Assembly (NCBI GenBank): GCA_036925085.1
Contig: JAUPFP010000143.1
Location: forward strand, 93,779 to 157,778
Source: Brachycybe producta
Lineage: Eukaryota > Arthropoda > Diplopoda > Playtdesmida > Andrognathidae
Direction: 5' to 3'
DNA length: 64,000 nt
Shown: positions 2,060 to 57,900 of the stretch, in pieces
Layout: every line of letters starts with the position of its first letter
How positions within the stretch are numbered: the first letter of the stretch is position 1
Translations under genes and position numbers: made by a program
Notes under the pieces: generated by a model
Told to the model about the DNA's origin: nothing
Seen by the model: the letters and a program-made list of their open reading frames with translations, nothing else
The model's database searches: none

Positions 2060-18395
<16,336 letters not shown>

Positions 18396-23192: not shown

Positions 23193-26100
23193 TCAGAAAA
23201 TTATCTTGTTAAAAACTAGAGAAAGAAAAGTAAAGACACATAAAAAGATGGTTGTGTTAAGTTTGATTGCAGAGCCATAGGCACTGTATTTACTACACGG
23301 TGAATGTCGAATAGTATCTCGATAATAATTTTCCCAAAGACGTTTCAGATGTTCATTCTTGCAACCACTAATGGCTTCCAAATTACATTCAAATGAATAA
23401 TCCAAAGTACTATAGAAAAGGAAGGGGGAAAAATACGAAAATAAAAATTAATTATCAAACCTTGAAACATACCTTAAGATTAAATTAATTGGTTTTCATA
23501 AAGAGATGGTGATACACCACCCCCACCCAGAGGGAAAAGAAAGGGGTACACTTAAACTTATATGTAGTTGAATCATCAAAACTACATCATAACTAGGGCT
23601 CGGATTTTGATGCAATATCAACCGGAATGTTTCTCAATTTGTGGCCCAAGTGCCAATTGTGAAGTAATCGTCAACATCATTAGAGCAACTGCAATTATGC
23701 TTTTTTCTAATCAGAAAAGGGTGGTTAGAGAGGCTAGATGTCTGGTTACTATCAGTTGTCAACTAGAGTTCTAGCCTCTAACTATTTTTTTAAGTTAGAA
23801 AGAACAATTTTTTTTATCTAAACGCGATTGTTACTTCACAATTGGCACTTGGGCCACATATTGAGAAACATTCTGGTAGATATTGCATCAAAATCCGAGC
23901 CCTAATCATAACATTGAAAGAAGTTGTTTATGCCTTCATCTTAATTTTTTAAAGCATATACTTCATAGCAAGTAGTCTTTATAGTATTAGTAGTAATGTA
24001 TGCATATGACATAAGTTTGTGCAATATTAAATGATAGGAAAATGAAATAAACAAAAATCTTTGAAGGTCTTGGACAATTTTCTTTACTAACTGTGACCTT
24101 CTATAAATAAGCACGCAGCATACATAATATAAAAATTGAATAAGGCCCCCTACCTACAAAATATTTTAGCAGTATTTCAATTTGTAGAGAATATACCTGG
24201 AGCAACGATTCTCAAAAGGTGTGTCGTGGCACACTAGTGTGTCGTGAGTTTTGCTAGGTGTGCCACGAAAGGTTTAGATGTTCTATTGAATGTTATATGA
24301 TTTAATATTTTTAAGTAAATTTGAACTTCATTGGAAAGAACAAAATAAAGGAAAACGTCCTATAACACTTATGCACTTAAACCAATGGTTTTCAAAAGGT
24401 AGCCCATGGCACACTAGTTTGCGAGTGAGTTCCGCTTGGTGTGCTGAGATTTCTTCAGGCAAAAAAAATATTGTGCAGTGAGTAAAAAAAAGTTTGGGAA
24501 TCACTGACCTAGAGAAACACTTTTATTGAACAAAGTAATTTTAAAACGCTGACATGAGTTGCGTCAAGACCTCCTATAGATAAAAGGGAATGTAGAAGAC
24601 CTTGATTTTGAGCAAATTCAAATTAGAATAATATTCAAAAAGAAAATCAATGAATTTCAAACATTTTGAATAGAAACTTGTAAAAAAAAATTGTTAAGCA
24701 AATTACACTTGCATTATTTGCTACAAGGCTATCGAACAATTTTAGACGAGCTCTTCATTACAATAAAATACTAAATTAAATTTAAAATTATGCAAAATAA
24801 TATAGTAAATGGTCATTTTTTATGACAAAACATACAAAAGAAATTTTATGTGATGAATGCAAAATTGTGCAAAATGCAAATTATAATTGTCAAAATAAAT
24901 ATGAAATTTGACATCCATTTAACCATAAAAAAATTCAATTGAAATGGAACAAAAACCAACAGGAAATCTATTTTTTTATAAATGAACTAGTGGGGTAACC
25001 CGTCATAAATAACGGGAGCAAAATTCACAGGCCCAGCATTAGAATTTCTTTTCCTCTGCCCTTTTATGATGTTAGACCAAGTAACAAACTAATTAGAAAT
25101 TGATGACGTTCATAAAAGGGCTGATCAAAAAAAATTCTAATGCTGGGCACAGTTGCCCGTGATAAATTCTAGTTTAATTTTGCTACTATTATCCCCTCCC
25201 CGTTTTATATTTGAAAGAGAAAATGAGCTTTTCATTTGCTCTGGTGTGCGCATAATCGTCGTTTGTTCCTTTTTTTACTCCTTTCATTTCAATTTCAGTT
25301 TCCCCCTCCCCCTTTTCCCCCTCTATGTTTCACTCTCTCCCCCTCCCTACCCTTTCCAACCTTTTCCCCTCTCCAATTTAATAGCATGGGGTTCTTGGAT
25401 GGGGAGAGCACAACGTAATCTTGACCTTGAGAAAAAAAAGCGGTTCATTTATTTATTTAATTTTAAATAAATTCCGACGTGCTTCAAGGTTTTTGTCCTT
25501 AATTGTTTGTACAGCGTTACTCAAAGAAAGAGAGAAATAAGGAAACACCGATAGACGTGGCTCAATATATATATATAGGCCTATAATGTTTGTTATAAAT
25601 ATAGGAACTGAGGCAACCATGAATATTACAATTTAGTTGAGTAATGAGCTTGACATAGGCCTATTAAGAAGTTGGAGTGGAACCGAGGACTAAGGTTACA
25701 AATATTATTATTGCTAAATGATCTTAGCATGGCTCAATGATGAAAAAATGAACAAATATAGCACCAATAAAATAACTGTTACCTGAGAAAAAAATATATA
25801 TATATTATATTACTTACTAACAAACTGATTCAACAGGTGTTTCCTGTTCAAATTTAATTTGGCTGATGTAAGCACAATATCTTAACGGAATCATATTTTC
25901 GATAATACAGTCTCTGCCTCCCATTCGCATTACGGCTGTCATATTAATAAAACAAAAACCAAATCGCAAACTTCAATTAAAATAAATTCATTTGAATGAT
26001 TTAAATGTTAAAACATACAATCGATTTCCAGCTGAGAATCACGACATGTATGTTTGGGTCCATATTCAACTAGAGTGTCCAATAGTCCGATAATAAAATC

Positions 26101-27161
26101 TCTACCTTCATCAGTGTAAATCAGTTTAAATACATAATTCAAAATTGTTCTGCATCTGCTAAAAAATTCAGGACTGAAATGAAATAAAAAAGTAATTAAA
26201 TGATTAAACGAAAAATGCAAAATTTACTTATATTTTTAATGAAAAATGTTTTTAATTCTGTTTACTTGCACATGTATTGTATATCAACGTCATATCCTGT
26301 GAGTGCTTTTGTAGGCATTTGAATGTCTGTCTGACATTCATCTGGAATTTCATTTGGTGTCTGTAACGTTAAACACATAAAAGTTCCATTGTTTCCATTA
26401 TCATCTGCAGCTGTTACTGTAATTAATATTAGTATTTGCAAGATTAAAAAAATCAAATTTGACATTTTTCTTTTACTTTTGGCAATAAAAATAAAGCAAA
26501 ATAAAATTAATGTAATTGCATATATTTCAGAAGAACTAGACAGTAAAATGAAATTAAACTGTAAATAAAAATTCACGAGACACCCTGTAGATCTGTAAAT
26601 TAATTCCTCTTTGTTAGTAAAAAAAAAATGAGACAAAACATTTTATTACAAATTTAACTGATTGAAAATGAGTAAAAAATAATGCGTTGTTGGTTTTGAA
26701 AATGTGTTTAAATGCAAAACTCAAAAAAATCATTTAATAGAGAACTACTTAATTGAACTAATTTTAAAGTGTTGGCAGCAATATTATGTTTACTACAGTT
26801 TTAATACATGCAGTTTACATAAGACATACATAATTACTAATTAGGCAGACTTGGCAAAAATAGAAGAAACTTAAAATAATAAACATGTTACTTTGGAAAT
26901 ATAAAATCTTAATATTGTTAAGATAAAACCTCGGATTTTGGTTCAAATTAATAGGTAACTAGGTCTATTTTAATGTCTAAATTGTTTGGATGACATAATT
27001 TTAATAGTATACTGATTGGTAATCATGTCATATTTACATAAAATTAATAATGACCTATAAATATTGCAAATATTTGGTACATTACCACCAAATCCATTGA
27101 AATAAAGTAGACACAACACAATGTTGATGGAAGCAAGTTTTAATGTTAACTTCAGTCTCAT
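23193..27161 (-). CDS. Cysteine-rich secreted/anchored protein, cluster member A (238 aa)
   Basis: Unrecognised family. Preferred model has five exons: 27086-27161, 26266-26416, 26019-26173, 25818-25935, 23193-23409. Intron phases are 1-2-1-2, as in B, C and D, and the total is 717 nt. Exon 1 is a signal peptide (MRLKLTLKLASINIVLCLLY). The mature part has cysteines throughout, including GGRDC in exon 4, and exon 5 has the family pattern GC-x6-L then HSPC. The C-terminus is hydrophobic (TTIFLCVFTFLSLVF), suggesting a GPI-anchor signal or a membrane segment. An alternative start is an in-frame ATG at 26465 that reads through the exon 2 acceptor and also gives a signal-like N-terminus (MSNLIFLILQILILI). 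I prefer the spliced form because it restores the shared gene structure. The last intron, 2.4 kb, holds a TA-type MITE and a hAT-like repeat. Confidence 0.75.
23596..23902. mobile_element. MITE with TA target duplication and about 80 bp terminal inverted repeats (copy 1)
   Basis: The ends GGGCTCGGATTTTGATGCAA and its reverse complement are flanked by TA on both sides (23594-23595 and 23903-23904). The arms (about 23596-23675 and 23823-23902) are near-identical inverted copies, both containing GGCCCAAGTGCCAATTGTGA in one orientation or the other. A TA duplication suggests mobilisation by a Tc1/mariner-type transposase. A diverged second copy lies at 40291-40585. Confidence 0.8.
24196..24508. 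mobile_element. hAT-like non-autonomous repeat
   Basis: The right end, read on the minus strand, is CAGTGATTCCCAAACTTTTT, a typical hAT terminus. The left end has GATTCTCAAAAGGTGTGTCG. Internally the phrase GGCACACTAGT occurs twice (near 24229 and 24408), so the element is partly duplicated or nested. There is no transposase frame. Confidence 0.6.
25030..25160. repeat. Fold-back repeat
   Basis: CCCAGCATTAGAATTTC on the left is inverted on the right as AAATTCTAATGCTGGG. The flanking sequence GTGGGGTAACCCGTC / GTTGCCCGTG adds to the palindrome. It lies in the last intron of cluster gene A. Confidence 0.6.
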
Positions 27162-28328
27162 GATTTGTTTGGTCTCCTGATGTCAAATTATGTGAGTCTT
27201 TAAAAAAGTTCACAAGGTTTTTTGGATTATAATCATATTGATGAATTCACATAGTGTAGAGTTAAAAGGTTTGAACTCATGGGAAAAAACTAAATCCTGA
27301 ATACATACAAAAAATCGCTCACTATCATGGTATTTCGTAAGTTTATCAAAATTGAAGTGATTTTTTATATTAATATCATACTTGGAAGAGTCTATGATAA
27401 ATGCTGATAGTTGTTTATAGTGTAGTAGAGACACAATTTGTTTCAATACAATTCGATGAGTCAAAATGAAACATCAACTGGACACATTTACATGTAGACC
27501 TACAAGCTTTGAAGCCATATGTCACTAAAAAACACAGCTGTACAAATCAGCTGAACAATCAGATGGAGGTTAAAACAAATTCGACATTAATGGCTGTTTT
27601 GCAGGAAGCCAGCATTTATATGCATTTCATGCATTTCCGACAATCTTTTGTTATAGCTTTAACATATATCCTATTTCATACAATTTTTAATAATGACATG
27701 TATTGTCATGGCAAAGTTTGTAATTATTTTTACAATATTAATAAAAAGAAATACAAAAAAAAAACTAATCATTTAGAGATTTTTCAGTTGTTTACTTGTT
27801 TTTTTTTTCAATAAAGATTGCAATATTTCCATTAATTGGAAAGTTAATTGTTTATTTTTCCAAAAAAAGAAGTTTTATTAAATCAAGTAAACCTGTTTAT
27901 TGTTATACATGTATAGACATAATTAGTAACATTTCATAATGCAATTAGGATCATTATTCATTAATTAATGAGAAAAATTATAGGTGACTGTTGTTTGATT
28001 GAAATGTATTCATTGATTTTAAATGAAAAGTGATGCTGAATCATTGAGTCATTGCATTTGGTCATCCATATTATCTTTTAGAATTACTACATTTGGTGCA
28101 ATTACACAAACAATTAAAATTTAACATTGAATCATGGTTCTATTATTTAATGTATAAAACTAAAAATCTAAACAATATATAATCAAATAAATTTTGATGG
28201 TAAATAAACCAATTAAGTACTGTATGTGCTAGCTATACTTGAATAAAACTTTCAGAGAATGGTTTTAATTTACTATAAACAATGAATAAAATAGGTTTAG
28301 AATCTGTTTTACATATTTCTTAATGTAA
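27162..28328. other. Spacer between cluster genes A and B
   Basis: AT-rich. One minus-strand open frame (27210-27464) has two cysteines (VCIQDLVF, STLCEF) but no family motif and no matched splice sites. It could be a decayed exon of a lost paralogue. Nothing else is supported. Confidence 0.4.
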
Positions 28329-29367
28329 TCATACTGAATAAATTATATTGTTGGAAATCCATACAATGATTTTTACAAGTAGAAATAATAATGCACTAGA
28401 CTGAATAAATGAACCTCCACCTTGATACAGATTAATGTCATTAACACATGGTGAAAGTGATGTGACACCTTGAAAATACTTTGCTAAAATGTTGAAGGGT
28501 TCTTTGTGTGGAGTACCGTTTAATAAATTCAGCAGACAATTAAAAGAAGTGTGCATATCACTGTAGAAATAAAACAAAAATATAAAGCATTTTTCAGTTT
28601 CTAAACAGTTTTTTTTTTCAAATTAAAAACTTTTACAAGATGTACTTACCCGCAAGATACATTATAGTTCGTATATAACTGATGTACTATTCCATATGTA
28701 CAGTTTTTAATATCAGCAGTGTGATTGTTCATAAAGTCAATACTATTATTCATTATACCTAAAAAGAAAAAGATATTTACCAATAAACAGCAAATCAAAA
28801 ACCAATAAACAAAGTTAAACATACCAGTGACATAATTTTCACCCATCCCACATGCTGCATATTTTCCACCTAAAGTAAATGCATCCATCCATTTCAAATA
28901 GGTCACCAATGTGTTGTAGGAACAATTGAAATTGAGACAGTTTTCTTCATATATGTATCTGCAACCAAGCATGTAATTCTGACTCCTTAAAAAATAAAAA
29001 ATTAAAAGCTCAAATGGTTGATAAATAATTTAATTTAATTTAAATTATAACCAGCATAAAAAATCCCAGTCAACATTGTTTGGATCTAACATTGCTGACA
29101 AAGACATGTAATAGTCATTTGTGCAATCCCTTATATGAGCTGGAAATATCTTTTTAAATTTACAATGCTCCTTCTGTTGTTTACTTGATGACAATGTTGA
29201 ACATTGTTTTCTACCTTAATGTTAAACAAAAATAATACATAAAGCACTTTATTAAATGTTGATATAATTAAGTTAAAATTTATAATTAATAAATTGTTTG
29301 AATACCAACCTAGTACAATGTCTGTGCCAAAAAACAAAATAATTGTAAGCAAGATGAATCTCATCAT
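28329..29367 (-). CDS. Cysteine-rich secreted/anchored protein, cluster member B (240 aa)
   Basis: Unrecognised family, five exons: 29310-29367, 29052-29214, 28825-28985, 28650-28758, 28329-28560 (723 nt, phases 1-2-1-2). Exon 1 is a signal peptide (MMRFILLTIILFFGTDIVLG). Exon 2 contains RKQCSTL, EHCKF, RDCTN and ends at DFLC. Exon 3 (YMLGCRYIYEENCLNFNC) aligns with exon 3 of C and D through the YxxGC start. Exon 5 keeps the family end LAKYF-x8-SPC. A Gly-rich stretch (YQGGGSF) is followed by a hydrophobic tail (SALLFLLVKIIVWI), as in a GPI-anchor signal. Several NxS/T sites suggest N-glycosylation. It is the most compact gene of the cluster, with introns of 66-95 bp. Confidence 0.82.
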
Positions 29368-30010
29368 TAATTCAATGCAATCAAATAAGTCGTTTCAAGT
29401 TTAAAAAATAATAAAATAATGTACTCAATATCTAATGCAACCTGTTTTCCATTTCATTTATATCAATAAGTTGTCACTCAAAGTACAAAATATGACAGTT
29501 AAGTTCATATCTTTCAGTTGTAAACATGATACAATATATCACAACAGAACAATGTTTAAGTTCTTTTTAAAAAAAAATAGATATTTAGTCTCTTGAGTAG
29601 GGAATTGGAGCATTATACAATATACACATTCAAATTATCAGGTGATCAGATAGATTCTTTAAACTTAATCAATTACTTTAATGCAGTACAGGTTAAACAA
29701 CATTAGCAAGGGGTTTATTAACAACATTAACACGTTAAACAATTCCCTTTATAGGCATATAGGCATTAAGGAATACACAGATCTTTATCGCAATTCTAGT
29801 AAAACATAAAAAGTGGTGTAGGATGAATGACATTAACATTTGTTATTTTAATTTATTTAGCGGATTTATTTTATATTTTATTATTTGTATTTAATTTGTA
29901 TTCGTCTATTTTGGTTTTGATTTTTGCTCCTAAAACAAATTTTATTATTCTTTAATTTCAAATGAATATTTAAATATTGAAATGACTACCAAACATACAA
30001 AAGCAAACAA
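29368..30010. other. Spacer between cluster genes B and C
   Basis: AT-rich spacer, probably holding the promoter of B (right of 29367) and the 3' UTR of C. No further coding or structural feature is seen. Confidence 0.5.
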
Positions 30011-31846
30011 TCACCAATAATAAGAAGACCCAATAATTAAAGATGCTATCATTGAAAGAATACAAAACAGAAAACTGCCAGTAATATTTGTACTAGAACC
30101 ACTTCCACCTTCTATGATTATTTGATCATGACAGATGGAATTTGCAACACTTTTGTACAAAAACTGAGCTACCAAAGTTCGAAGTCCTTTGTATGAGCAT
30201 TTGTCCAATTCATTCAACACATTATGCATGTATTTATCCATATCTCTGTTAATATAAGAAATTAAAATTAACATAATGTACAACTAAATATTCAACTCAA
30301 CACAGATAAGAAAACAATTGTATTGACCTGCAGTTTATAGTTTGTCCGTAATATACACTATTTACGAGATTGTAAACTTGTGGATCAATGACTATTTTAT
30401 TCAAACAATCACTTCCGCCATTTTTATGAATATCTGTTATTAAAAAAACACAATGCAAAATTAATTTCTCAGCAATATCAAAATATATTTTGAGTTGTCT
30501 TAAAAAGGTTTGACTTAAGGTGGTTTTAAGGTGTAAACGAGCCTCAAATTCTGGTTATTCTGACTTTCAAAGAGAAAAATTCAGCGTAGCTTTTGTTAAA
30601 CTACAATTCTAGTTTCTAAAACAAACTAGAATTGTAGCTTAACAATTACTTATAGATAATTTCATGTTTAAATATTTTTAATACTTTTTATGGCAGTTTG
30701 AAAATGAGCAAACATTAAGCTGACATTTTTTAAAAATTCTGTCTACCCTTCTAGTTTATAAAACACTTTCTAGTTTCTCTAAAATTTTGCTCTTGAAAGA
30801 CAGACTAATCAGTTTGCAAATCAGCTGTTTGTAAACGATCTTAAGTGAAAGTTGAAAGTGTTTCAAAAGCTAGAAGGGTTGGCTTAAAATGATGACAAAA
30901 AAAGCTTATTTCGAAAGTAGAATATTCAGCTACCCTTCTAGTTTCTAACACATTCAATTTCTACTTAGCGTTGATTCTGAAACGGATAATATCCAGAGTT
31001 AGAAAATCACCTGTTTCTAAAAACAACTTACTGTCAATGTCACTGAAAGGATTTCCACAAATAAAATCTTTTGCTGTGTTTGGAAACGTGTCGATCCAAA
31101 AGGGAAGAGTTGATGTGTCACATCTACGTATATAACATTCCGCTAAAAATTGTTGTTTACATCCTATAAAATAATCTGAACTACAAAACAAAACATAAAA
31201 TAAATTATACAGTAAACAAAACAAATAAGCAGACATCAATGTCTCTATATTTGTTTACCTGCACAGGTAACCATAATAGTCTGCATACAACAAAGTGGTC
31301 ATTGGTAATGAAAACAATTGAAAGCATGTAAACTGTTGTGACTGCAACACTTTTCCTTCCGTATTCATGACACGATAAGAATCAGCTTTAGAAAAATGTA
31401 ATATATATTTTAAAAAAAAAATACATTTTTCAGTTTCAACTTAAGATGGTTTATGAAAAGTTGATTTTCGACCTCTTGTCTTTCAGAAGTGCAAAATTAA
31501 TAGAAACCTAAAATTGTTTTAGGAACTAGAAAGGTATCTCAATCACTTCCAAGGAAATTTTCATGTTGATATCTATCCGAGTCATTTTCAAACTCATCTA
31601 AAAAGCTTATTTTAAAAAATATGGACATGAGTGATTGCGCTAGATACCCTTCTAGTTTCTAAATCAATTTCAAGTTTTTTTCTAAGTTTGCTCTTCTGAA
31701 AGACAGAATAATCCGAGTTATAGAGGCGTTTACACTTTTAAACCACCTTAAGTATCATGATGTTAACGTAGGTTTTACTTACTTGAATTATTAAAAATAG
31801 TTGGTAGAAATATTAAAATAATAAGAAACTGAAATATCGTTGCCAT
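30011..31846 (-). CDS. Cysteine-rich secreted/anchored protein, cluster member C (226 aa)
   Basis: Unrecognised family, five exons: 31783-31846, 31259-31385, 31032-31180, 30328-30433, 30011-30245 (681 nt, phases 1-2-1-2). Signal peptide MATIFQFLIILIFLPTIF. Exon 2 has TCFQLFSLPMTTLLY and ends in LC; D has the matching TCLDNFSLPLTSVLY. Exon 3 reads SDYFIGCKQQFLAECYIRRC, clearly like D. Exon 4 has NGGSDC. Exon 5 has DKC-x6-L and NSIC. Then GGSGSSTN, small residues suitable as an anchor site, and the tail GSFLFCILSMIASLIIGS follow. Introns 1 and 3 hold complete palindromic MITEs (31438-31751 and 30514-30845). Confidence 0.85.
30514..30965. mobile_element. Palindromic TTAA-type MITE, copy with a second partial copy
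   Basis: The left end TTAAGGTGGTTTTAAGG and the right arm GTTTGTAAACGATCTTAAG (about 30826-30845) bracket inverted copies of the shared core (ttctagtttctaaaac / gaaactagaa). Inside, ACTACAATTCTAGTTT is followed by its inverted copy. A further half copy runs to 30965. It lies in intron 3 of cluster gene C. Confidence 0.6.
31438..31751. mobile_element. Palindromic MITE with TTAA-type ends (complete copy)
   Basis: The left end CTTAAGATGGTTTATGAAAA and the right end TTTTAAACCACCTTAAG are inverted. The two halves are long imperfect inverted copies, both carrying TTTCAGAAG or its complement and aaactagaaggg or its complement. The ends fit a TTAA target site as used by piggyBac-type transposases, but no transposase is present. 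It lies in intron 1 of cluster gene C. Related copies are at about 20860, 30514, 32255, 37800, 40790, 54300, 59160, 61840 and 63640. Confidence 0.75.
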
Positions 31847-32254
31847 TATAAATACCAAGTAAAATTTCCTTAATAGAAAATAAAAGTCACAAGTAAATTA
31901 AGGTGGACAATCTTACTAGACTTCAAAATTTAAACTGAAAACTTTCAGATGTTGAACAATTTAATGTAGAATATTTTTGTCATAGAACAGTTCCGGGTTG
32001 TCGCTAAAAACAACAATGGATTTTCTAAAATACACAATTTCTCATTATTAAAACAAACGAAAAGGTTTCATAGTAGGTATGATCCAATGAATTACAGTTT
32101 GTATTGGCGTTTCCTTAAATTTGATAAGAAATTGAAAACGATTTAGTGTATAATTTGCACAAACTGTCAACATTGCGACAGAATTTCAGACAATAATGAG
32201 GTAGTATTTGTCTGTAAATAAAATAGGAGTGAGAAAAAAAAATAAATATTGCAC

Positions 32255-32580
32255 AAATTTGCATTCTAGTTGCTCGTTCTGGTGTTTCATGAGAAACTAG
32301 TCGGGGAAATTTTGAAAGTGTGTTAGAAACTAGAACGGTTGCTGAGTCCTTTAATAGTATCTTCATGTTGATATCGTTCAAATTAAACTTTTTATAAACA
32401 AAAATTAAAAAATTTGGGTTATCGTCAAAGTCACACATGTATATTAAATTAAAAAAATACTTTTAAGTGATCGAGCTACCCTTCTAGTTTCTGAAACACT
32501 TTCAAATTTTTCTTAGTTTTTGCGTTTAAAAGAATTCGAAGGGCGTTTACACTTTAAAAACATACTTAAACTAACAAATA
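32255..32580. mobile_element. Palindromic TTAA-type MITE copy
   Basis: The gaaactagaacgg core and its inverted partner cccttctagtttctgaaacac, with the end GGCGTTTACACTTTAAAAACATACTTAA, match the copy at 31438-31751. It lies between cluster genes C and D. Confidence 0.6.
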
Positions 32581-33077
32581 TTGCTTTTTTTATAATGAAC
32601 TGAAATAATACAATTTTGCCAATAATAGGCATCTGGTCGAACTATTATGAAAGGCCATTCATGTCAACAATTCAAATATGGCTATGCATAATTCAAATGT
32701 GGATTGAATCAAAACTGAATTGTGGATATCCACAATTGAATTATGGATAAATAATATTTGGAAATTTTGTTATGAGTGGCCCTCCATAGTGGTTATGAAT
32801 GGTTCGACCAAAAGTGCCAACAAAAAAACACGCCTAAAGTTAGCCACAAAAAATGGCATCTTGTATTGACATTTAATACAAAAATGCAATTTCTAATACC
32901 GTTACTAAGATAATGAAATAAAGATAATATTAATCTTCAAATTTTTTTTTTATTAAAAACATTTTATTTCATATTTATTTGTAAAAAAATGTGTTATTCT
33001 TAACAGAACATTAAAGAAAAATATTATTTTATATGAACAATATAAAATATTGAATACAAAAAACTCAACACACATTT

Positions 33078-35112
33078 TTATTGTCTCTTCAGAGCAATAA
33101 AGACAGAGGCTAAAATTGCTACAACACAAAGAAACAAATTTGTTGGCACATTTGTAGCTGCTCCTGGACTTATGTCACCTTTGCACGGTGTAAGATTCAC
33201 AACTTCATCAAAGTATTTTACGACCACATTTCTAAGATCCTTTTTGTCACAAGAATTCAACTGTTTCGAGACATCATTCATATAGTTACTAACATTCCTA
33301 AAAAGACAATAGAAATACAATTTTATATTATCTAACTCAATTTCAGTTTATAAATTAATATTTCAATTTAAACTGACCTGCAGCTTAGAGACTGACCATT
33401 CCAAATACTTCCATATAAATTAAGAAGTGGCGCTGAAATGTCCAGTCCAACATCAGCCATACAATCTCTGCCACCGTTCGTTTGAATATCTACATAAAAG
33501 AAATTTATTAAAATTATCAAGAAATATATTTTGACTTTGATTCCAAATCTATACCATTGATAGCATTAAATCCAAATACGCAAATATAACTCATGGCAGC
33601 TCTAGGAAAACCTTGTACCCATGGCAGAAGTTTATCATAGTCACAACCACGATCCTTGCAATTGGTAATAAACTGATTTTCACAATCTGAGAAATATGAT
33701 GATCCATCTAGACGTTGGCTTCAAAAATAATTCAAAACATTAAAAAAAACTGTAAAATTATACAATGTATAAGTATTTATATTCCGTGCTGCAGTACGTA
33801 TTTTAGGATATGTTAGGTTGGGTTAAGTTATGGATGACTATAGAGATTTAGCATCGGAACAATAGCAGTGGCGTTGCTAAGAGTAGCATTGAGTTCATAC
33901 TGACACCAGCCTGTTTAATATTAACTTTCGGTGGAGTGAACACGGGGAAATACTCGTATTCACCAAAGGGAGCACGTATCCACAGTCGGAACAACTTACC
34001 ATTGCCTAATGGAGCAGTAGTTCACAATTGTGAACTACTGCTCCATTAGGCAATGGGAAGTTGTTCCAGCCTTAAGGCTGGAAATTTATCCATCCATCAA
34101 TGCTGCCATTAGTTATCTTATCTCCCCCCATTCCTGGTCTAGTAAATACCAACTGTGGGGCCGAAGAAGTCTAGGAATGGGCACGACTTTTTGATAGTTC
34201 ATGTCGCAAAGCGTCGAACCCTTTCCGGCATAAAATTACGAGGCATAACTGGAGTAGTTTGCTCCCGGCGCAAGTTTCCAAAAGGGTGCTTTCAGATTTA
34301 ATTTTTAAATTTTATTTTCTGAAGTTTCCTAATTAATAATTAATAACTTTACATTAATTAGTAGAATAAATTTTCAATAAAAAAAAACTTGATTTGAGAC
34401 TGCAGACTCATGGTGTTCCAGTCTAAATACGGGTGGCTATAGTTTGACCTTTGAATTCTAACCTCTAATTAAGTTCTTTGACTGAAAAACGCATTTTTTG
34501 ATTTAGTTATGAATTCCAAAAACACATTGGAGGTGGGGGAGTTAGATTCTCAAGACTCTGGCTCCCAAAGCCAAAAACCTCGCTAGTCACTGGACAAGGA
34601 CTAGGAAAAATTACTAGCTTTTAACTATATTGTTTCACTAGTTAAACCTAGCTAGTTTTACTGATTTCATATATATCTGCTGTAAAACATGTATTAAAAT
34701 CAATTTAATAGCCATTACATACCCACACACTTGATTGAAAGTATTATTAGAACCATATAAAACAGAAGTTAACGGAAGGGAAAAATTATCCAAACAAGTA
34801 TGACTACTTTGAAGTTGGCTTCTCAGGACCCTTAAGGCCTCATCTGAATTGTAACCTAAAATTAGAAGAAAAAAATACACTTAATTCAGTTTTACACTCA
34901 ACACTAATCAGTTTAAATTTGTATGAAGTTGGTTTATTTAAAGTATTATTCAGTATTCTTAATAATAAATAAATAAAAGTAGAATGAAAACTACATATGA
35001 ATGTATTTATTTAAAAAATAAAATCCGATTTAAATTACTTACTACCGAAAGCAGCAGTTGAAATAACAGCAATAAAACCAGAGAAAATAAGCACTTTGAA
35101 AATAAACTCCAT
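33078..35112 (-). CDS. Cysteine-rich secreted/anchored protein, cluster member D (232 aa)
   Basis: Unrecognised family, five exons: 35043-35112, 34723-34855, 33555-33718, 33378-33489, 33078-33297 (699 nt, phases 1-2-1-2). The signal peptide is MEFIFKVLIFSGFIAVISTA. Exon 2 has TCLDNFSLPLTSVLY and ends VC. Exon 3 has SSYFSDCENQFITNCKDRGC, closely like C. Exon 4 has NGGRDCMADVG, sharing GGRDC with A. Exon 5 has NSCDKKDLRNVVVKYF and LTPC. The tail is NLFLCVVAILASVFIALKRQ; because it ends in basic residues it could be a true membrane segment rather than a cleaved GPI signal. Intron 2 contains an 80 bp near-perfect palindrome. Confidence 0.85.
33988..34067. repeat. 80 bp near-perfect palindrome
   Basis: Two 40-base arms meet with no spacer at CACAATTGTG, and I count one mismatch in the 40 pairs. 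The palindrome sits inside a moderately GC-richer block (about 33780-34300) that looks like an inserted repeat in intron 2 of cluster gene D. Confidence 0.85.
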
Positions 35113-35950
35113 TTTTATGAAAGTAATAACACTTAAAAGTAAAAAAAAATGAATTAAAGATTGTGCTTATAAATTAGTTAGACAGGATTTCCTCTCCTTC
35201 TCTACAGTGAAATTTCAAAGAACAAATGAAATTGGTTGGAAACTGTATTAATATCAGGTAGCACACACCCTAAATTTAATGACGTAATTAATGTTTGTTT
35301 AGCTTTCTCAACGGATTTCATATTGGTGTATAATATTATATAGCATGATGATATCAGCTCCTTTTTATATATATTTGTGATAACAAAAAAAATGATAACC
35401 ACCTAGATAAGTCATGAAACGTAAACATCAAAACTCAACAAACAACCCAAAAGTTTCGATTTTCACACAATAAAAATTACAGTCTACATTCTAAATTTCA
35501 AATTTAGGTCTTAAACATTTTTATTTTATATTAATCAGAGTAAGGTACTGAAAATAATATATTTCTTTTGTAGTTATTTGTATAACCTTAACATTGCATT
35601 TTGCAAATTCTACTATTTGACGTCATCAAATTAGAGATAAATGGTTGATTTCCCTTTTCTCATTATGACACACCTTAAATAAAATTATGAATCATAAAAA
35701 AAATGTTAAGAATTACTCTGTCGAATTACAATTAGGACCTACTGTGGAGACTTTATATTTCAAAACGTATTGAATGTAAAAAATTGAACTTGAATCTTTA
35801 AAAAAAATTAAGAAACAAAAGGGTTTTAATTAAAATTATTTGCGGAATTCTGTTTCAATTTGCATAACAATGACACCCTTCATGGTCACTATACGTTATA
35901 TAAAGAATATTTTGTGACCAAAGGTGTTTATTTGTTTATTTTATTTTGAA
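35113..35950. promoter_or_regulatory. Shared upstream region of divergent cluster genes D and E
   Basis: 838 bp separate the start codons of D (minus) and E (plus), which stand head to head. The region is AT-rich; TTATATAAAG at about 35897 is a candidate TATA-like word for E. A bidirectional promoter is possible but not shown. Confidence 0.4.
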
Positions 35951-37539
35951 ATGGTGGCCATCATAGTTTTCATTATGATGATTTTTGGTAATCATAACAT
36001 ATAATTTAAGAAAGAGATTTGTTTTTTTATAAGTTTGATTTTTCATTTAGATTTCATTATTGGGTCGCCGTTACCAGCTAATAATGAAGTATTTACAAGA
36101 TTTTCAATATTTCATGATTGTATGCATAGAATACCTTTAAAAAATGTTCGCGAAAGTTGCAGGTAAACATGATAAATACTAAATAACCATTGGAAACAAT
36201 CTTGAATGACTTATAATTTGTGTTTAATAGAAATGCTGAAGGATGTTTAGATGATTTATTTGATAGAGTTGGTGATTATTTAAATGCTAAAGCAGAGATA
36301 AAGGCTAAATTGGAAGTGAAACACGAATTGGACCATTTTAAACAGGATTGCAATAATATTTTTGATATGGGTATAGATAATTTTTGTTTTATTTTAACTT
36401 ATTTCCTTAATCTTTGATCGTATTTACGCGTTATAATAATTAAACAATAAAGGTGTGGTTTATATTTTAATAATATTTGGAAATAATTATTTGGGCATAA
36501 TAATTAATATTTGGGGTATTCTTTCGATTCGGAGCTGCTAGTCTCTATGTTAAGGCTGTGGAGTTAAAAGCGAAATAAAGCGAAAAAGCTGTACAATCTC
36601 CTGCAGAGAGGCTAAGTAGCTGCTCATCGAAAAAATTCCAATATTTGGGTCTAAAGTTTGAATATATGACAATATTTTCATTACAGCCAATAGGGAACTT
36701 TTCTGTCAATTAAATGGAATAAAAGTTTGCCTAAATAAAACACACACCATCTATACGAAGGAACCACTTTGCAAGTAACTTCCTTTTTTTTTTTTAAAAA
36801 AAAAAAACTTATTTGCACTGAATAACATTGAATATTGTTTTCATTTTTTTCTTTCAGAAAACTATTTCTTTTAAGAGACTGTTTGGGACCATTTGAACTT
36901 GATTGTTGGAACCGAATTTTTGCAGCTATTTTAAGAACTATTACATTAGGAATTTGGGAATCTAACGGCTGTTCAAATTGTAATTAAAAAATTTTTTATC
37001 TTGAAATTCAAGACGTTTAATCGATTTTTGTTTTTATTAATTAAGCAAATAGCGCCACTGAAGCAATCAATTCGTCTAAAAAGAAAACAACTTCAAGCAT
37101 AAATGGAATTCCTTTTAACAATACATTAGTTTCAACTACAAATAAACCATATACAACAACTACTAGTACTCCTCCTCCTATTGCTCAACACGGGATATTT
37201 AACATGAAGTCACGTAGTTTGAATTTAGTGAAAGATGATGACGTCAGTGTTTTAAATGATGATGATAATATCGATAAAGTTGATAGGTCATTTAATGAGA
37301 CTGTCATGAATCATTCTAAAATAAATTGTACTAGTTTTGAATGTAATGACACTTCATTAAACCAATCTGATTTCAATTATATTAGTCCTGCAAGAGACTT
37401 TATTGATTTTCCTGATTTTACTGATGAAACTATTTTGACCAATAATAACATAAGTAATGTTTCAAACAAAGGGATAAATTCGAAAATATCAAATTTTGTA
37501 TTCATTTTGTCTTTGTTAATTTATATTGTCTATATATGA
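35951..37539 (+). CDS. Cysteine-rich secreted/anchored protein with Ser/Thr stalk, cluster member E (330 aa)
   Basis: Unrecognised family; divergent, longer paralogue. Six exons: 35951-35987, 36051-36162, 36231-36370, 36687-36774, 36858-36979, 37046-37539 (993 nt, phases 1-2-1-2-1). The first five exons repeat the A-D layout: a short signal exon (MVAIIVFIMMIF), then cysteine exons ending in ESC, QDC, PLC and NGC at the same phases as the paralogues. The extra sixth exon adds about 145 residues rich in Ser, Thr and Asn (YTTTTSTPPP), with many NxS/T sites, then the tail NFVFILSLLIYIVYI. This resembles a glycosylated stalk before a GPI-type anchor signal. An open frame continues past the exon 3 donor for a few codons, so an intron-retaining short form could exist. 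Confidence 0.8.
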
Positions 37540-49976: not shown

Positions 49977-52759
49977 AGTTCATTGTAATAATTTGGATAT
50001 TAACGCTAACGTCACTATCGCATGTGACAGGTAAGTAAAAAAAATATTACTTTTCTACAGACTACATAGAAAAAAAAATTACTAAAATACGAAGTAATTA
50101 ACAGCAAATCCCCTTACTTTTTCATAATTATAAATATATTACCTTTTCTTATCAATTTTTAATTTGCAAAAAAATATGGCTACTATTTTAAAGTAATTTT
50201 TATTGAGATTTCCTAATTTAAATTAATTGCCTGGACTTTTAGGAACAAACAAAAAAAATTGATTAAAACGCGTAAATCGTTGTTTTAATCAGCTTTGACT
50301 TCGGAATGTAATTCAACATTTCGATATTGCAGATGCTGGAGATTGTTTTACTGACTTTGGAGAAGAATACAGCAAATGTCTGATTGGAGGCCGTTTCAAG
50401 GCAGCAAACTATTCAGAATGTTGTTCGTATCCGAGTGCTTCGGGATACGTCGAATCCACTAGTTGGATTATTTTTCCAGAATATTTGTTCAATAGGAAAA
50501 AAGCACAAACATCATGCCAGTCATGTGCGGATTACATGAATGAAGGAGGTATATACATGTATACTATAACCTTATAAGTACATTTTCAATCCATTTAACC
50601 CGATATGAAAGAAACAGTCCTGAATATTTTTTCGTGTTAAAAGAATGTGTATGCTATTCTAATTGACTGGACGGAAAATATATTTCCTGCTATACGGTTT
50701 CCACTATAATTTTAATTTAATTATACGGTTTTAAATGAATATTGTATCGATAAAGGTTCCAAAAACTGGTGTTTCGGATACCGTAATAACGCCGACAACT
50801 ATTGCGTCCACTCTGCTCCATCTTTCGAAATTCTTAATGCAAATGACGAACTAGACTGCTGTCTTTGGTACAATGCCAGTGGATTCACAGATTCTCCCAA
50901 CTGGAGATGGTCTAAAAGCTACGGAAGATGGACTACCCTATGTAACGAGTGTTACAAAGATGGTAATTAACAATTCCTATCTTTAGCAGAGTTTCAAGTA
51001 TAAAATTAATATCACCACCTTTAGAATTAATTTTGAATTTTGAATTTCCAGATTTAGTTGGCTGTTACGAAGGATTGTCCGAAATAAACTCCGAGCTAGT
51101 GTGCGATTCTCCGCAATCAAGAATGAGCAGAAGTACCAATGAATGTTGCAACCGACGAAATGCCGTGGCGTACGATCTTATGGATCGTTATGGAAATGGC
51201 AAGAGACAGTGTTTTCCTTGTCCAAGTTAGTGATTGCATAAAACTTTCAAAAGAATCTTCAAGACTAAAACGTGAAGTTAATTTATGTTTGTATAAAATC
51301 AGTACATGGAAAATGGTCTCCATGGTCAGTGTGGTCACCTTGCTCAACAACCTGCGGAAGTGGACAGAAAAGAAAAATACGGATTTGTAATAACCCGATT
51401 CCACAATTTGGAGGCAAAGAATGCAACGGTTATGGAGAAGAAATTGCAAATTGTACAAATAATGTTCAATGTGCCGGTAAATTAAACAAAATGATTTCTC
51501 CTTATTTCAAGAATAATCATGTCTGCTATATTTTCCAGATTCAGGAATTCAGAACAGAAACATGATCGACACACAAAATTTATCAAATAACACCGATATG
51601 TTTTGGAGTGACTGGTCGGCATTCTCGCAATGTGGTGTAACGTGTGGAATCGGAACAAAAATGCGTCAACGGATCTGTTTACTCTCACCATTTGAATATA
51701 ACAATTGTAACGGATCTGATCGTGACGTTCAGCCTTGTGAATCTGCACGGTGTCCCAAATCAAACAACACCCATGAGGCTAAAGGTAAACGCATAATTAT
51801 GTTGCATTTAAGTTTGTATGCGATTGTCTCTAAAATAGATTATATTTATCTTTCAGAATTCCGAATAGATGACAGAAATTTCAGTTGGGGTCCTTGGAGT
51901 CCGTGCCCACAGACTTGTGGAGTCGGCATCCGAAAACGCATAACAATGTGCACTGTTCCTAATAACGACGACAATAACAACGGGACAAACGTGACGTCAA
52001 CAACACCGACAAAAAATTTCGACAGTAACGGCGGCTGTGTCGAATCGACCGAAGTCGGTCTCTGTGAACTTCAAGCTTGTGTTTCCGAGGTGTCGATGGA
52101 TCCAGGTTAGTCAATTTGAAACAACTTTTTTTAAATCTCATTAAATTTATCGATTTTTTTTTTCCATTCATTATTTTTATAAGGTGTTCCAATAGCTTGG
52201 ACAGTGGCTGTATTAGCAATGGGAACTCTTATCACTGGTTCAGTTATTTTGTTTTGTCAGAGAAGGAGGTTTGTAATACATTTCGGTATCAGCATTTGTA
52301 AATTAAAATAGTTTTTATCATCTTCATTTAAGATGGGACGAAAAAATGAAGTCATACTTTAAGAGACCTTCATTGGATACTGAACATAAGCCCAGAACTC
52401 CAGCCGAATTGCCACCGGTTCCAGAAGTCACCACCACGGCCAGTAGTTTAACCAGTTTCAGATCCATAGAGGATTTACGAAACCGCTATGCGACAGACAC
52501 AAATCGAAGAAGTTCAAGAGGTGCCGTTTGTCAACAAGACGACGAAGGATACGAAATACCACGACAAGGAGTTAACGAGTCCACTGCCGAAGACAAGGGC
52601 GCAATATCAGGCAGCAGTGGCATACATTCCAAGAATCCTCCCGATAACTGGGGTTCCGATGGTAGTAATTTACACGTCAATCACGTTTACGAACAGCTGG
52701 AATTCAGCGCCGATGGTACAAAAATATCCATTGCCGAACAAGGCGATTCAGTTGTGTAG
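49973..52759 (+). CDS. Membrane protein with three properdin-type N-terminal domains and three thrombospondin type 1 repeats (611 aa)
   Basis: Single-pass type I surface protein. Exons: 49973-50030, 50333-50548, 50756-50962, 51052-51225, 51303-51476, 51539-51784, 51857-52105, 52184-52268, 52333-52759 (1836 nt). Each extracellular domain is one exon with phase 1 borders. Residues 1-19 are a signal peptide. Residues 20-91, 92-160 and 161-218 are three copies of a domain with pattern C-x(n)-C-x(n)-ECC or DCC or ECC-x(n)-C-x2-C (first copy starts CFTDFGEEYSKC). It resembles the TB-like domain at the N-terminus of properdin. Residues 219-276, about 285-358 and 359-441 are TSP1 repeats (WSPWSVWSPCSTTCGSG, WSDWSAFSQCGVTCGIG, WGPWSPCPQTCGVG). 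The TM is about 445-465, followed by a polar 140-residue cytoplasmic tail. The tail has a Pro-rich piece (RTPAELPPVPE) and tyrosines (DEGYEIP, VNHVYEQL) that could bind SH2 or SH3 proteins. Orthology to properdin is not claimed. Confidence 0.87.
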
Positions 52760-54951: not shown

Positions 54952-57900
54952 TTATTCCGCATATTGCGAATAGAAAGCCGTTTTCACACGTTCAACATGA
55001 TGACACAGTTTTATTGCCGGGCCGAGTTTCAGTTCCAAATGTTCCTGAATTGTCGGCAAGGTTAACAGAAGCAGCGCTTGACCGTCAATTTCCTAACCGC
55101 ACCACAAACGATACACACACAATCGTTTTATATTTCAATCGCAAACCGACAACAAAAATCAAGCAAAAACAAAACACAAAAACAAAAAGCAATTTAGAAG
55201 AACAAAAATTTTCTTTTCCTACCTGATCTCTAAGGATTCTCGCGATTTGCGAACAATCCGTACTTTTAAAAAACGAAACCACTTCCTCGACACTCCAATA
55301 AAGTGGATTAGAATCTAATTTCAGCATTTCGGGCAGCGGCTGTTTGAACTAAAGATACCGAGAATGAAAAATATATAACGTCAATCGCATTTATTGACGT
55401 TCGTGTTATTGTTATTTCGGAAAGCAAACCTCGGAACCCGTAGACGAGCCGGCCGAAGAAGAAGAAGGTGTGACGTTTGATACGTGTGAAGAAGCTTTGA
55501 CGTGATCCGCGACAACTCTTGGACAAGACTTCTTCGGTTGTGCAAACCTTTTCGTCTCGACGGCAGTGACAGTAAACGCGTCGACATCCCCGTTTTGCGA
55601 AGACTTGCGCCTCGTAGTGTTTTTTCTGTGATTGTGCCTCAACTCGAGAGCAAAGTTCGGCAGTTTTGCTCCACGTGTGACGATGTCAGACTTTGGGATG
55701 ATGCGATGAACATACTTACGTTTCTCACGAGGTGGAGCTGAAACGATTTCGCGTTCTTCTTTGATTACCACTTTTTCATCCTCGTTATTGATTTCGTCAT
55801 CTTTTGTACAAAAAACAAACAAAAATCAAAATATGAACGTAATCTTTTCCGTAAAATCACTATCAACTAACCAATTGGCGTTTCTTTGCTAATGGCTAAA
55901 CTCTTGTGATATTTTCGTCTTCTTTTAGTTCGTTTGATCACTAAAAAGTAGAAAAATACATTACAAATAAAAGTAGTTGTTGCATTTCATCAGGAAATCA
56001 TTTAAGGTCTTTCATTTTCGGAATCGAGGTGAATTAAAATGAAGAATAAAAAAATTAACAGATATATTATCGTAAAAAATGCCCAGTGTCTTTTTTTCTA
56101 ACCTTTCTAGTTTTTAAGAAATTTTGAAATTCTTTCATAATTTGCTTTGATAAATGTTTTTTGTTTTCTTCTGGACCACGTCTAAAAATGAAACTGATTT
56201 CGGTGTTGCTAAAATAACAATACATTACCAGTTTTGTTTGTTTTTGTTAGAGTGTAACACTTTTCGTCACATTTTTCTCCAACAAACTTTGGACCAATCA
56301 AATTAGGACAACATTGTAGTTTCCGACAAATTTCGCGACAAAATTCGCCGACTTTATCACTGTTTCGAATGATCTCGACCATCGCACGATGCGTCTTGCA
56401 TTTATATCTATTCAAAACATTTCTCTTATATTTTTTTGCAATTGTTTTCAACCGAGTGTGAGAAATTTTTTTTACTTTGCTTTGATGAGTTGATGTTGCA
56501 TTCCAGGACTCGGCTGTCCGGAACTGGCTGCCAACAAACCCAAAACACGACTAGGTTGGTACGACACATTGACCAACAATGAAATAACTTCTCTAAGAAC
56601 GAGTGTGACCGGACCGGGTCCCACGTAACGTGGTAAACCGGCAACACGAGATTTACTCAGAAAAAGACCAGAAAAACACTTGTGATTGACGTAGATCTCG
56701 GGACACCATGCTTTATGAGTTCCTAAAAATGACAAAAGGACAAGTACATTTGTAGAATTGTTTACGACCAAAAGGGTTTGGAACCATCTTTATACGTTTT
56801 ATGCATTTTTTCATTAAAATTATCTTAGTTTACTCTTCTAGTTTCCCATAAATTTTAAAAATATTTGAAATTTTTTGCTTCCTTTTATTTTCAAAATTAT
56901 GTACCCTGGCTTTCACGAGATTCTTTAATGCACTGCGATTCTTCGCTGCCATCTTCTTTGTCGTCGTGTTTTCGTTTTCTACTGAAATCAAAAATAAAGG
57001 TAAGAGGAAAAACTCAAATAGCTAATTAGAAAAAATTACTCAACTGTTTCTTGGGAATGACTATGGCAACTTTCTTCGCCGAACGTTTTGCCTCACGTTG
57101 CCTCAACAGAGGCACTTTCAACGGATAATTGTTACTTTCGCACCACCCGATCGGAAACAGATCGTGTGAACTTACAGGCACAATATAATGCGAATTCAGC
57201 CTTACAAAATAAATAACAAATAAAAAAAAATTAAGAAGTTGCAACCAAAATGTCAAACGAAGAAATTCCTTCACAACTTCTGACCCATGTGCACTGTCAA
57301 ACTGAATCCACAGCAAATGATTGACCACTCTGATAACAGTCGCAACACAAATTTGATTTGGCTGCGAGGGATCCACCACTTCCAGTTTCATTTCGGCCTC
57401 GAACCCGTGATAGTCGTTTTGCTTCGCGAACAATAGATAAGAATAAAATAAGATGAAACTAAAAGATGAAAACCAAAACGAAAAATTCAATTCACGTACA
57501 ATGTTAAATAAGTATTCGGGTGCCCGTAAAACGGAACCGCAATATTTAGAGCACTGCTCCAGATAATCATCCCAATCAAACTCAACGTGACAATCTAAAA
57601 TAAAAACTATATTTGAAACTAGTGTCTTTTTATTTAAAAAATAAATCGTATATTGTTAAAAATTTAAATAATTCATTTTCTTAAGAAACTTCTCACTGCA
57701 AAACAAGATCGACACTGAAATTATTTAAGAACAACAGCAACAACACCTTTTGGATTTGGTATCTTAATACCGCTACTTCTCGCCCATCCGACAGGAAATA
57801 TGTTGGCAGATCGAGCATGACAGCAAAACGGCTGTCGAGGCACAGATGGAACGGCATCATCACCGCAATGAAACGAATCGTCGATCTCGACCAAAAAGTA

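Follow-up and report, generated by a model that had tools for sequence, protein, structure and literature searches.

What are the five cysteine-rich genes that lie side by side in a 64,000-nucleotide stretch of the genome of the millipede Brachycybe producta, and do they belong to a family that is already known? The stretch, referred to here as the window, spans positions 93,779 to 157,778 of JAUPFP010000143.1 (C143) and is the end of this 157,778-bp contig; the genome searched is the 295-Mb assembly GCA_036925085.1, which has 442 contigs. An initial annotation made from the DNA letters described the genes, A to E, as an apparently undescribed family of tail-anchored proteins. The explanation that best fits the evidence jointly, and that we consider likely, is a divergent cluster of two-module, glycosylphosphatidylinositol (GPI)-anchored proteins resembling DUF1397 (PF07165), with A to D as relatives of that family and E probably one as well. 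The insect 27 kDa haemolymph (glyco)protein belongs to DUF1397. The cluster looks like a new branch within a family already known, and not like a system of a new kind.

The gene models were computed from splice signals and reading frames. All five have GT-AG introns and no internal stops, and their products of 226 to 330 residues bear out the five-gene cluster first described. Genes A to D occupy the minus strand (23193-35112) and E the plus strand (35951-37539), with D and E head to head. A phase series of 1-2-1-2 had been claimed for every gene. It is present in B, C and D, and in E with an extra fifth intron of phase 1, while A lacks the first intron and reads 2-1-2; the signal-peptide and first-module exons of A are fused into one, and a separate signal exon is a feature of B to E. 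Outside support for the exon chain covers A: P0001, a 243-residue protein encoded on a Logan contig of 1537 bp, aligns collinearly with A over all three introns of the gene, is 62% identical to it overall and, judged by sequence, is its orthologue. The chains of B to E are predictions from splice signals.

By sequence comparison, proteins A to D are homologous to one another over their full length. Global alignments of their mature regions were compared with 300 shuffles in which the cysteines were held fixed, and all six pairs give z from 5.0 to 18.5, a score that none of the 300 shuffles reaches, at a low identity to D of 19-35%. A profile of A and P0001 aligns with a profile of B, C and D over 220 columns (97% probability, E=7e-11); against C and D it gives 94%, and against B alone just 12%. 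Several short motifs run through the set, less regularly than first described. TC-x3-FSLP is shared by C and D as claimed. NGG-x-DC, ascribed to A, C and D, occurs in C (NGGSDC) and D (NGGRDC), A having MGGRDC instead, and the YF-x2-C start of exon 3 holds for C and D, with FF-x2-C in A and YM-x2-C in B. The motif at the end has a spacing of six residues, not eight: it reads YF-x6-[ST]PC in B and D and YY-x6-SPC in A, and is not seen in C.

Direct comparison of these proteins with Pfam, in which the five whole proteins were scanned at E up to 1, repeatedly returns one family. DUF1397 is the best match of D (3.2e-5, 23.8 bits), of P0001 (2e-4, 21.2 bits), of A (0.0053) and of B (0.012), and so tops the list in four of the six proteins. 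The matches of A and B, like the others, lie below the curated cut-off of 25.7 bits. None of ten cysteine-preserving shuffles (four of D, three of P0001, two of A, one of B) matches DUF1397. The sole match of C, ColG_sub (0.0047), and that of E, MSP7_C (0.1), are taken for chance.

A bridge to the family is provided by a gene elsewhere in the same genome. A whole-genome search with DUF1397 gives four exon matches, one above the cut-off, all at about 1.905-1.916 Mb of contig C17, and the four belong to one gene, X (C17:1904948-1916173). X has seven exons and encodes 485 residues with exactly 24 cysteines, arranged in four six-cysteine modules and followed by a GPI-type tail. It matches DUF1397 in two stretches at E=2.6e-61. 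X is likewise a model predicted from splice signals, and it is the only canonical DUF1397 gene available for comparison. A profile of its halves aligns with a profile of A to D and P0001 at 93.9% (E=1.5e-7) over 132 columns, which begin at the end of module 1, cover module 2 and reach into the tail; B to D alone give 89%, and so do the second modules alone of A to D and P0001 (E=2.2e-6). In pairwise comparison, B and D each resemble both halves of X (z 4.2-5.4, 0/300 shuffles).

The gene structure reinforces this comparison. A module comprises up to six framework cysteines encoded by two exons, with extra cysteines in module 1 of B, C and D. A phase-2 intron falls directly after the codon of the third cysteine in 14 of 14 cases, ten in A to E and four in X. 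Phase-1 introns sit at the module starts and have been lost at three places: the first of A, the first of X and the boundary between modules 2 and 3 of X. The distance from the third to the sixth cysteine (C3 to C6) is 39 residues in every second-type module (8/8: A, B, C, D, E, P0001 and modules 2 and 4 of X, X2 and X4). The exact spacing is 8-7-21 in A, E and X4, and likewise in P0001 bar one extra cysteine; X2 has 8-8-20, C and D have 16-21 through loss of C4, and B has 8-29 through loss of C5. First-type modules are looser, at 41 to 47 residues, with 44 in A, P0001, X1 and X3. The cluster therefore shares its module 2, its cysteine framework and its intron positions with DUF1397 as represented by X, and the initial claim of an undescribed family is not supported. 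We conclude that A to D are DUF1397 relatives lying beyond the Pfam threshold; A and C are counted among them because they are homologous to B and D and share the architecture.

The losses of cysteines carry information of their own. Module 2 retains all six in A and E, is without C2 and C4 in C and D, and is without C1 and C5 in B; module 1 of E, too, has neither C1 nor C5. This pattern of paired losses suggests disulfide pairs 1-5, 2-4 and 3-6. Since C and D are closely related, their joint loss of C2 and C4 counts as one event. Module 1 of A keeps C1 without C5, contrary to a 1-5 pair.

The termini point to secreted proteins attached to a membrane. Proteins A to E have hydrophobic N-termini (best 12-residue mean 2.59-3.40) and, as first noted, hydrophobic C-termini. 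Within the last 45 residues, all seven proteins examined (A to E, P0001 and X) have a 15-residue window of mean hydropathy 2.3-3.05, followed by a further 1-7 residues. This stretch is usually preceded, as judged by eye, by small residues, in the manner of a GPI signal, and from it we infer a GPI anchor: the tails look like GPI-attachment signals. The tail of D, with LKRQ as its last residues, is less typical and counts against this assignment. The description of the proteins as tail-anchored was rejected because they have hydrophobic signal-type N-termini and GPI-type tails.

A disulfide-clamped helical bundle is the probable fold of the modules. AlphaFold, applied to P0001 with the window exon translations, reaches a predicted local distance difference test score (pLDDT) of 55.6 overall. 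Module 2 of the P0001 model is wholly helical at about 62-82 pLDDT per 10-residue block, module 1 stays below 50, and the proposed fold thus comes from module 2 of P0001 only, at moderate model confidence. Sequence comparison of A to D and X with Protein Data Bank chains gave no match above chance level, and no meaningful match was found among solved structures.

The place of E can also be read differently. It may be an unrelated signal-peptide gene that adjoins the cluster by chance, which we regard as a minority possibility that deserves serious weight. All four pairs that include E give z from -0.6 to 0.8, with many of the 300 shuffles reaching the score, and a profile comparison of E with groups of A to D gives no signal; the gene lies on the opposite strand, encodes a long Ser/Thr/Asn stalk, and has no second copy that was found in the genome. 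Nor is there a signal in the profile of E against X (0.4%), and its pairwise z against the X halves, 1.2 and 2.2, is non-significant or marginal. On the other side stand the phases 1-2-1-2, the placing of both phase-2 introns immediately behind a codon for cysteine, and the exact 8-7-21 spacing in exon 5, for which random placement of three cysteines has a chance of 1 in 9880, the pattern having been chosen post hoc. By this architecture alone, with no detectable sequence similarity, E probably joins A to D and is probably a DUF1397 relative too. The initial proposal of one five-gene family, formed by old tandem duplication with conserved structure, stands for A to D on sequence and extends to E on architecture.

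A second alternative is that A to D, or all five, form a separate family whose likeness to DUF1397 comes from convergent cysteine spacing. Several results weigh in its favour and against kinship with DUF1397. None of the five window proteins reaches the Pfam cut-off, P0001 falls below it too, and C and E have no DUF1397 match at E up to 1. Pairwise scores against the two X halves are non-significant or marginal for A (z 2.2 and 0.9), C (0.7 and 1.8) and P0001 (1.3 and 1.5). A profile of A and P0001 alone reaches just 4.4% against X, and the first modules of A to D give no signal (0.3%). Modules 1 and 2 themselves have no detectable sequence in common, so internal duplication and the kinship of the first modules rest on introns and cysteines. 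Since the Pfam scores are sub-threshold, A to E are filed as divergent relatives and not as Pfam members. Convergence is nevertheless improbable in view of the shuffles, none of which matches DUF1397, the set profile against X, the 14 phase-2 introns that share one cysteine-linked site in A to E and X, and the constant 39-residue interval.

It is similarly unlikely that the module is a six-cysteine, GPI-anchored domain of the neuritin type and that the proteins act as surface trophic or adhesion factors. Neuritin (NRN1, PF15056) has the spacing C3-x8-C4-x7-C5, a GPI anchor and a single module. The resemblance of spacing and anchor is accompanied by one weak match: A at 0.012, or 0.0022 with its module 2 alone, where the best score of 18.6 bits does not meet the cut-off of 27 bits. 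The other five of six whole proteins, B, C, D, E and P0001, the orthologue of A, have no NRN1 match, and neither do the other seven of the eight module pieces scanned, a set that did not include module 1 of E or the second modules of C and D as separate pieces. A broader scheme would build DUF1397 and A to E alike from tandem copies of a single symmetric 1-1 exon module, six-cysteine, helical, GPI-anchored and homologous to neuritin. It is a speculation that we would not favour; if it were true, an arthropod haemolymph and venom family and a vertebrate neuronal factor would share one ancestral surface module. Weakest of all are nematode-type DUF19/T20D4.11-like, Ly6/uPAR or saposin-like domains, comparisons proposed in the initial annotation and suggested by secreted, cysteine-rich proteins with tails and a helical model: no Pfam match to them was found with the five whole proteins at E up to 1 or with eight module pieces at E up to 10, in searches where HMMER filters drop most weak matches, and the helical P0001 model is unlike Ly6. 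We regard these domains as very improbable; a distant relation to them may still exist.

Gene A has further copies in the genome. Two intact ones lie on contig C1, at 8802699-8805034 and 8927918-8933356, with coding sequences identical to each other. Each adjoins a copy of the last exon of B, which in the second is split over two frames, and the C1 segments also carry a piece that matches window 31.3-31.7 kb, including part of exon 2 of C. The two C1 copies of A lie in a local segmental duplication. Genome searches that started from D and from E, but not from C, turned up no second copy of D or E. Between the window and the C1 copies, 14 of 690 sites differ in the exons of A (2.0%), compared with 169 of 3673 and 169 of 3619 in aligned non-coding DNA (4.6-4.7%), a difference with a Fisher p of about 0.001. 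The nonsynonymous and synonymous divergences (dN 0.0148, dS 0.044) give a dN/dS of 0.34. Gene A is constrained. These figures concern A, and the fast evolution first proposed for the cluster is not shown, low as the identities between its genes are.

Table 1. Genes and exons of the cluster in window coordinates, with intron phases and encoded parts
Feature	Positions	Strand	Content
Gene A	26465-23193	-	229 residues; 4 exons, 3 introns, phases 2-1-2
A exon 1	26266..26465	-	signal peptide + module 1 first half, without intron 1, Cys66 last; P0001 collinear
A exon 2	26019..26173	-	module 1, second half
A exon 3	25818..25935	-	module 2 first half (MGGRDC), Cys157 last
A exon 4	23193..23409	-	module 2 second half (C3-x8-C4-x7-C5-x21-C6; C3 closes exon 3) + GPI-type tail
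Gene B	29367-28329	-	240 residues; 5 exons, phases 1-2-1-2
B exon 1	29310..29367	-	signal peptide
B exon 2	29052..29214	-	module 1 first half, Cys73 last
B exon 3	28825..28985	-	module 1, second half
B exon 4	28650..28758	-	module 2 first half, Cys163 last
B exon 5	28329..28560	-	module 2 second half + GPI-type tail
Gene C	31846-30011	-	226 residues; 5 exons, phases 1-2-1-2
C exon 1	31783..31846	-	signal peptide
C exon 2	31259..31385	-	module 1 first half, Cys63 last
C exon 3	31032..31180	-	module 1, second half
C exon 4	30328..30433	-	module 2 first half (NGGSDC), Cys148 last
C exon 5	30011..30245	-	module 2 second half + GPI-type tail
Gene D	35112-33078	-	232 residues; 5 exons, phases 1-2-1-2
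D exon 1	35043..35112	-	signal peptide
D exon 2	34723..34855	-	module 1 first half, Cys67 last
D exon 3	33555..33718	-	module 1, second half
D exon 4	33378..33489	-	module 2 first half (NGGRDC), Cys159 last
D exon 5	33078..33297	-	module 2 second half + hydrophobic tail
Gene E	35951-37539	+	330 residues; 6 exons, phases 1-2-1-2-1 (fifth intron extra, phase 1)
E exon 1	35951..35987	+	signal peptide; start codons of E and D lie 838 bp apart
E exon 2	36051..36162	+	module 1 first half, Cys49 last
E exon 3	36231..36370	+	module 1, second half
E exon 4	36687..36774	+	module 2 first half, Cys125 last
E exon 5	36858..36979	+	module 2 second half (C3-x8-C4-x7-C5-x21-C6; C3 closes exon 4), then extra phase-1 intron
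E exon 6	37046..37539	+	Ser/Thr/Asn-rich stalk + hydrophobic C-terminal tail

Some introns of these genes contain repeats. By eye, those of C (30580-30960 and 31480-31720) carry repeats with the word CTAGTTTCTAAA or close variants of it, and the long last intron of A holds an inverted repeat at about 23590-23910, which is unrelated to the CTAGTTTCTAAA repeats of C.

Elsewhere in the window, exons of a class C G-protein-coupled receptor of the metabotropic-glutamate type lie on the plus strand at 3158-3577 and 16854-17675 (ligand-binding 4.5e-10, 7tm_3 1.5e-69) and presumably belong to one gene. Two 688-bp segments that are 100% identical (5736-6423 and 15313-16000) flank an open reading frame with gag, zinc-knuckle and aspartyl-protease features (10493-13012, minus strand); the pair look like the long terminal repeats of a young retrotransposon inserted between the exons of the metabotropic-glutamate-receptor-like gene. 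The minus strand encodes MBT repeats and a SLED domain at 56209-58086, perhaps an Sfmbt/L3mbtl-like gene, and the plus strand two thrombospondin type 1 domains at 51517-52110. In the same assembly, contig C442, one of 18 contigs sampled, is mitochondrial (15,359 bp, 18.8% GC); as its open reading frames were read, nad4L, nad4 and nad5 share the strand of cox1, and nad1 is encoded on the opposite one. Among the 120 best COX1 matches listed, millipedes take the first six places (Antrokoreana and Abacion 85%, Tropostreptus and Narceus 83%, Brachycybe 82%); next come two rows of house centipedes and more millipedes, and after them mostly insects at 79-82%, in keeping with a millipede genome.

A comparison of the cluster with what is described for DUF1397 shows both the kinship and the distance. 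The direct matches of A, B, D and P0001 are weak but specific, the profile of A to D and P0001 matches X in module 2 and the tail, and X shares with the cluster the [ST]PC end motif, the cysteine framework and the intron positions. In contrast, the window proteins score below the threshold, have two modules where X has four, and have lost some cysteines in pairs and added others in module 1. The insect 27 kDa protein is described as a haemolymph protein that is up-regulated in Galleria after fungal challenge and has unknown function (PMC4224417), whereas the cluster proteins and X have GPI-type tails. A 27 kDa glycoprotein is a marker of an oenocytoid-like haemocyte cluster in Bombyx (PMC8914287), and DUF1397 proteins occur among peritrophic matrix proteins of Aedes (PMC5865745) and Hermetia (PMC8035744). 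DUF1397 is reported as recruited into scutigeromorph centipede venom (PMC6878950), is listed with unknown function for the venom of Thereuopoda longicornis (PMC4379518), and is named in figure legends of a further study (PMC5869384). Compared by these descriptions and not by sequence, the centipede proteins are likewise myriapod and secreted; they are venom components, whereas the window proteins carry membrane-attachment tails. The initial annotation had pointed to a clear match with a named Pfam family of known function as the outcome that would refute it. This has come about in part: a family can now be named, at scores below its cut-off, and no molecular function for it turned up. A published description of the module anatomy was not found in those portions of the literature that the search covered, which is not proof that none exists.

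These observations present a model in which each protein would have a secreted, two-module ectodomain and, behind it, a GPI-attachment signal; the modules would be displayed on the outer cell surface, probably as disulfide-clamped helical bundles. Each module is encoded by two exons, with a phase-1 intron in front of the pair and a phase-2 intron that splits it right behind the third cysteine codon. Old tandem duplication, starting from a single two-module unit, would have produced the cluster; X, elsewhere in the genome, carries two such units. The most likely way of working would be as GPI-anchored, cell-surface counterparts of the arthropod 27 kDa haemolymph protein, which is soluble. On haemocytes or epithelia, the proteins may bind partners outside the cell, perhaps as part of a defence. 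This role in binding or defence on blood cells or epithelia is a tentative guess.

For DUF1397, listed in Pfam as of unknown function, the comparison offers a concrete anatomy in which six-cysteine modules, each spread over two exons, are repeated and the introns keep a fixed register with the cysteines. It comes in two- and four-module forms that both appear to be GPI-anchored. This anatomy proposes disulfide pairs that can be tested, and distant members that escape sequence searches, such as C and E, could be found by their gene structure. It gives a lead on a poorly known family of arthropod blood, gut-lining and venom proteins.

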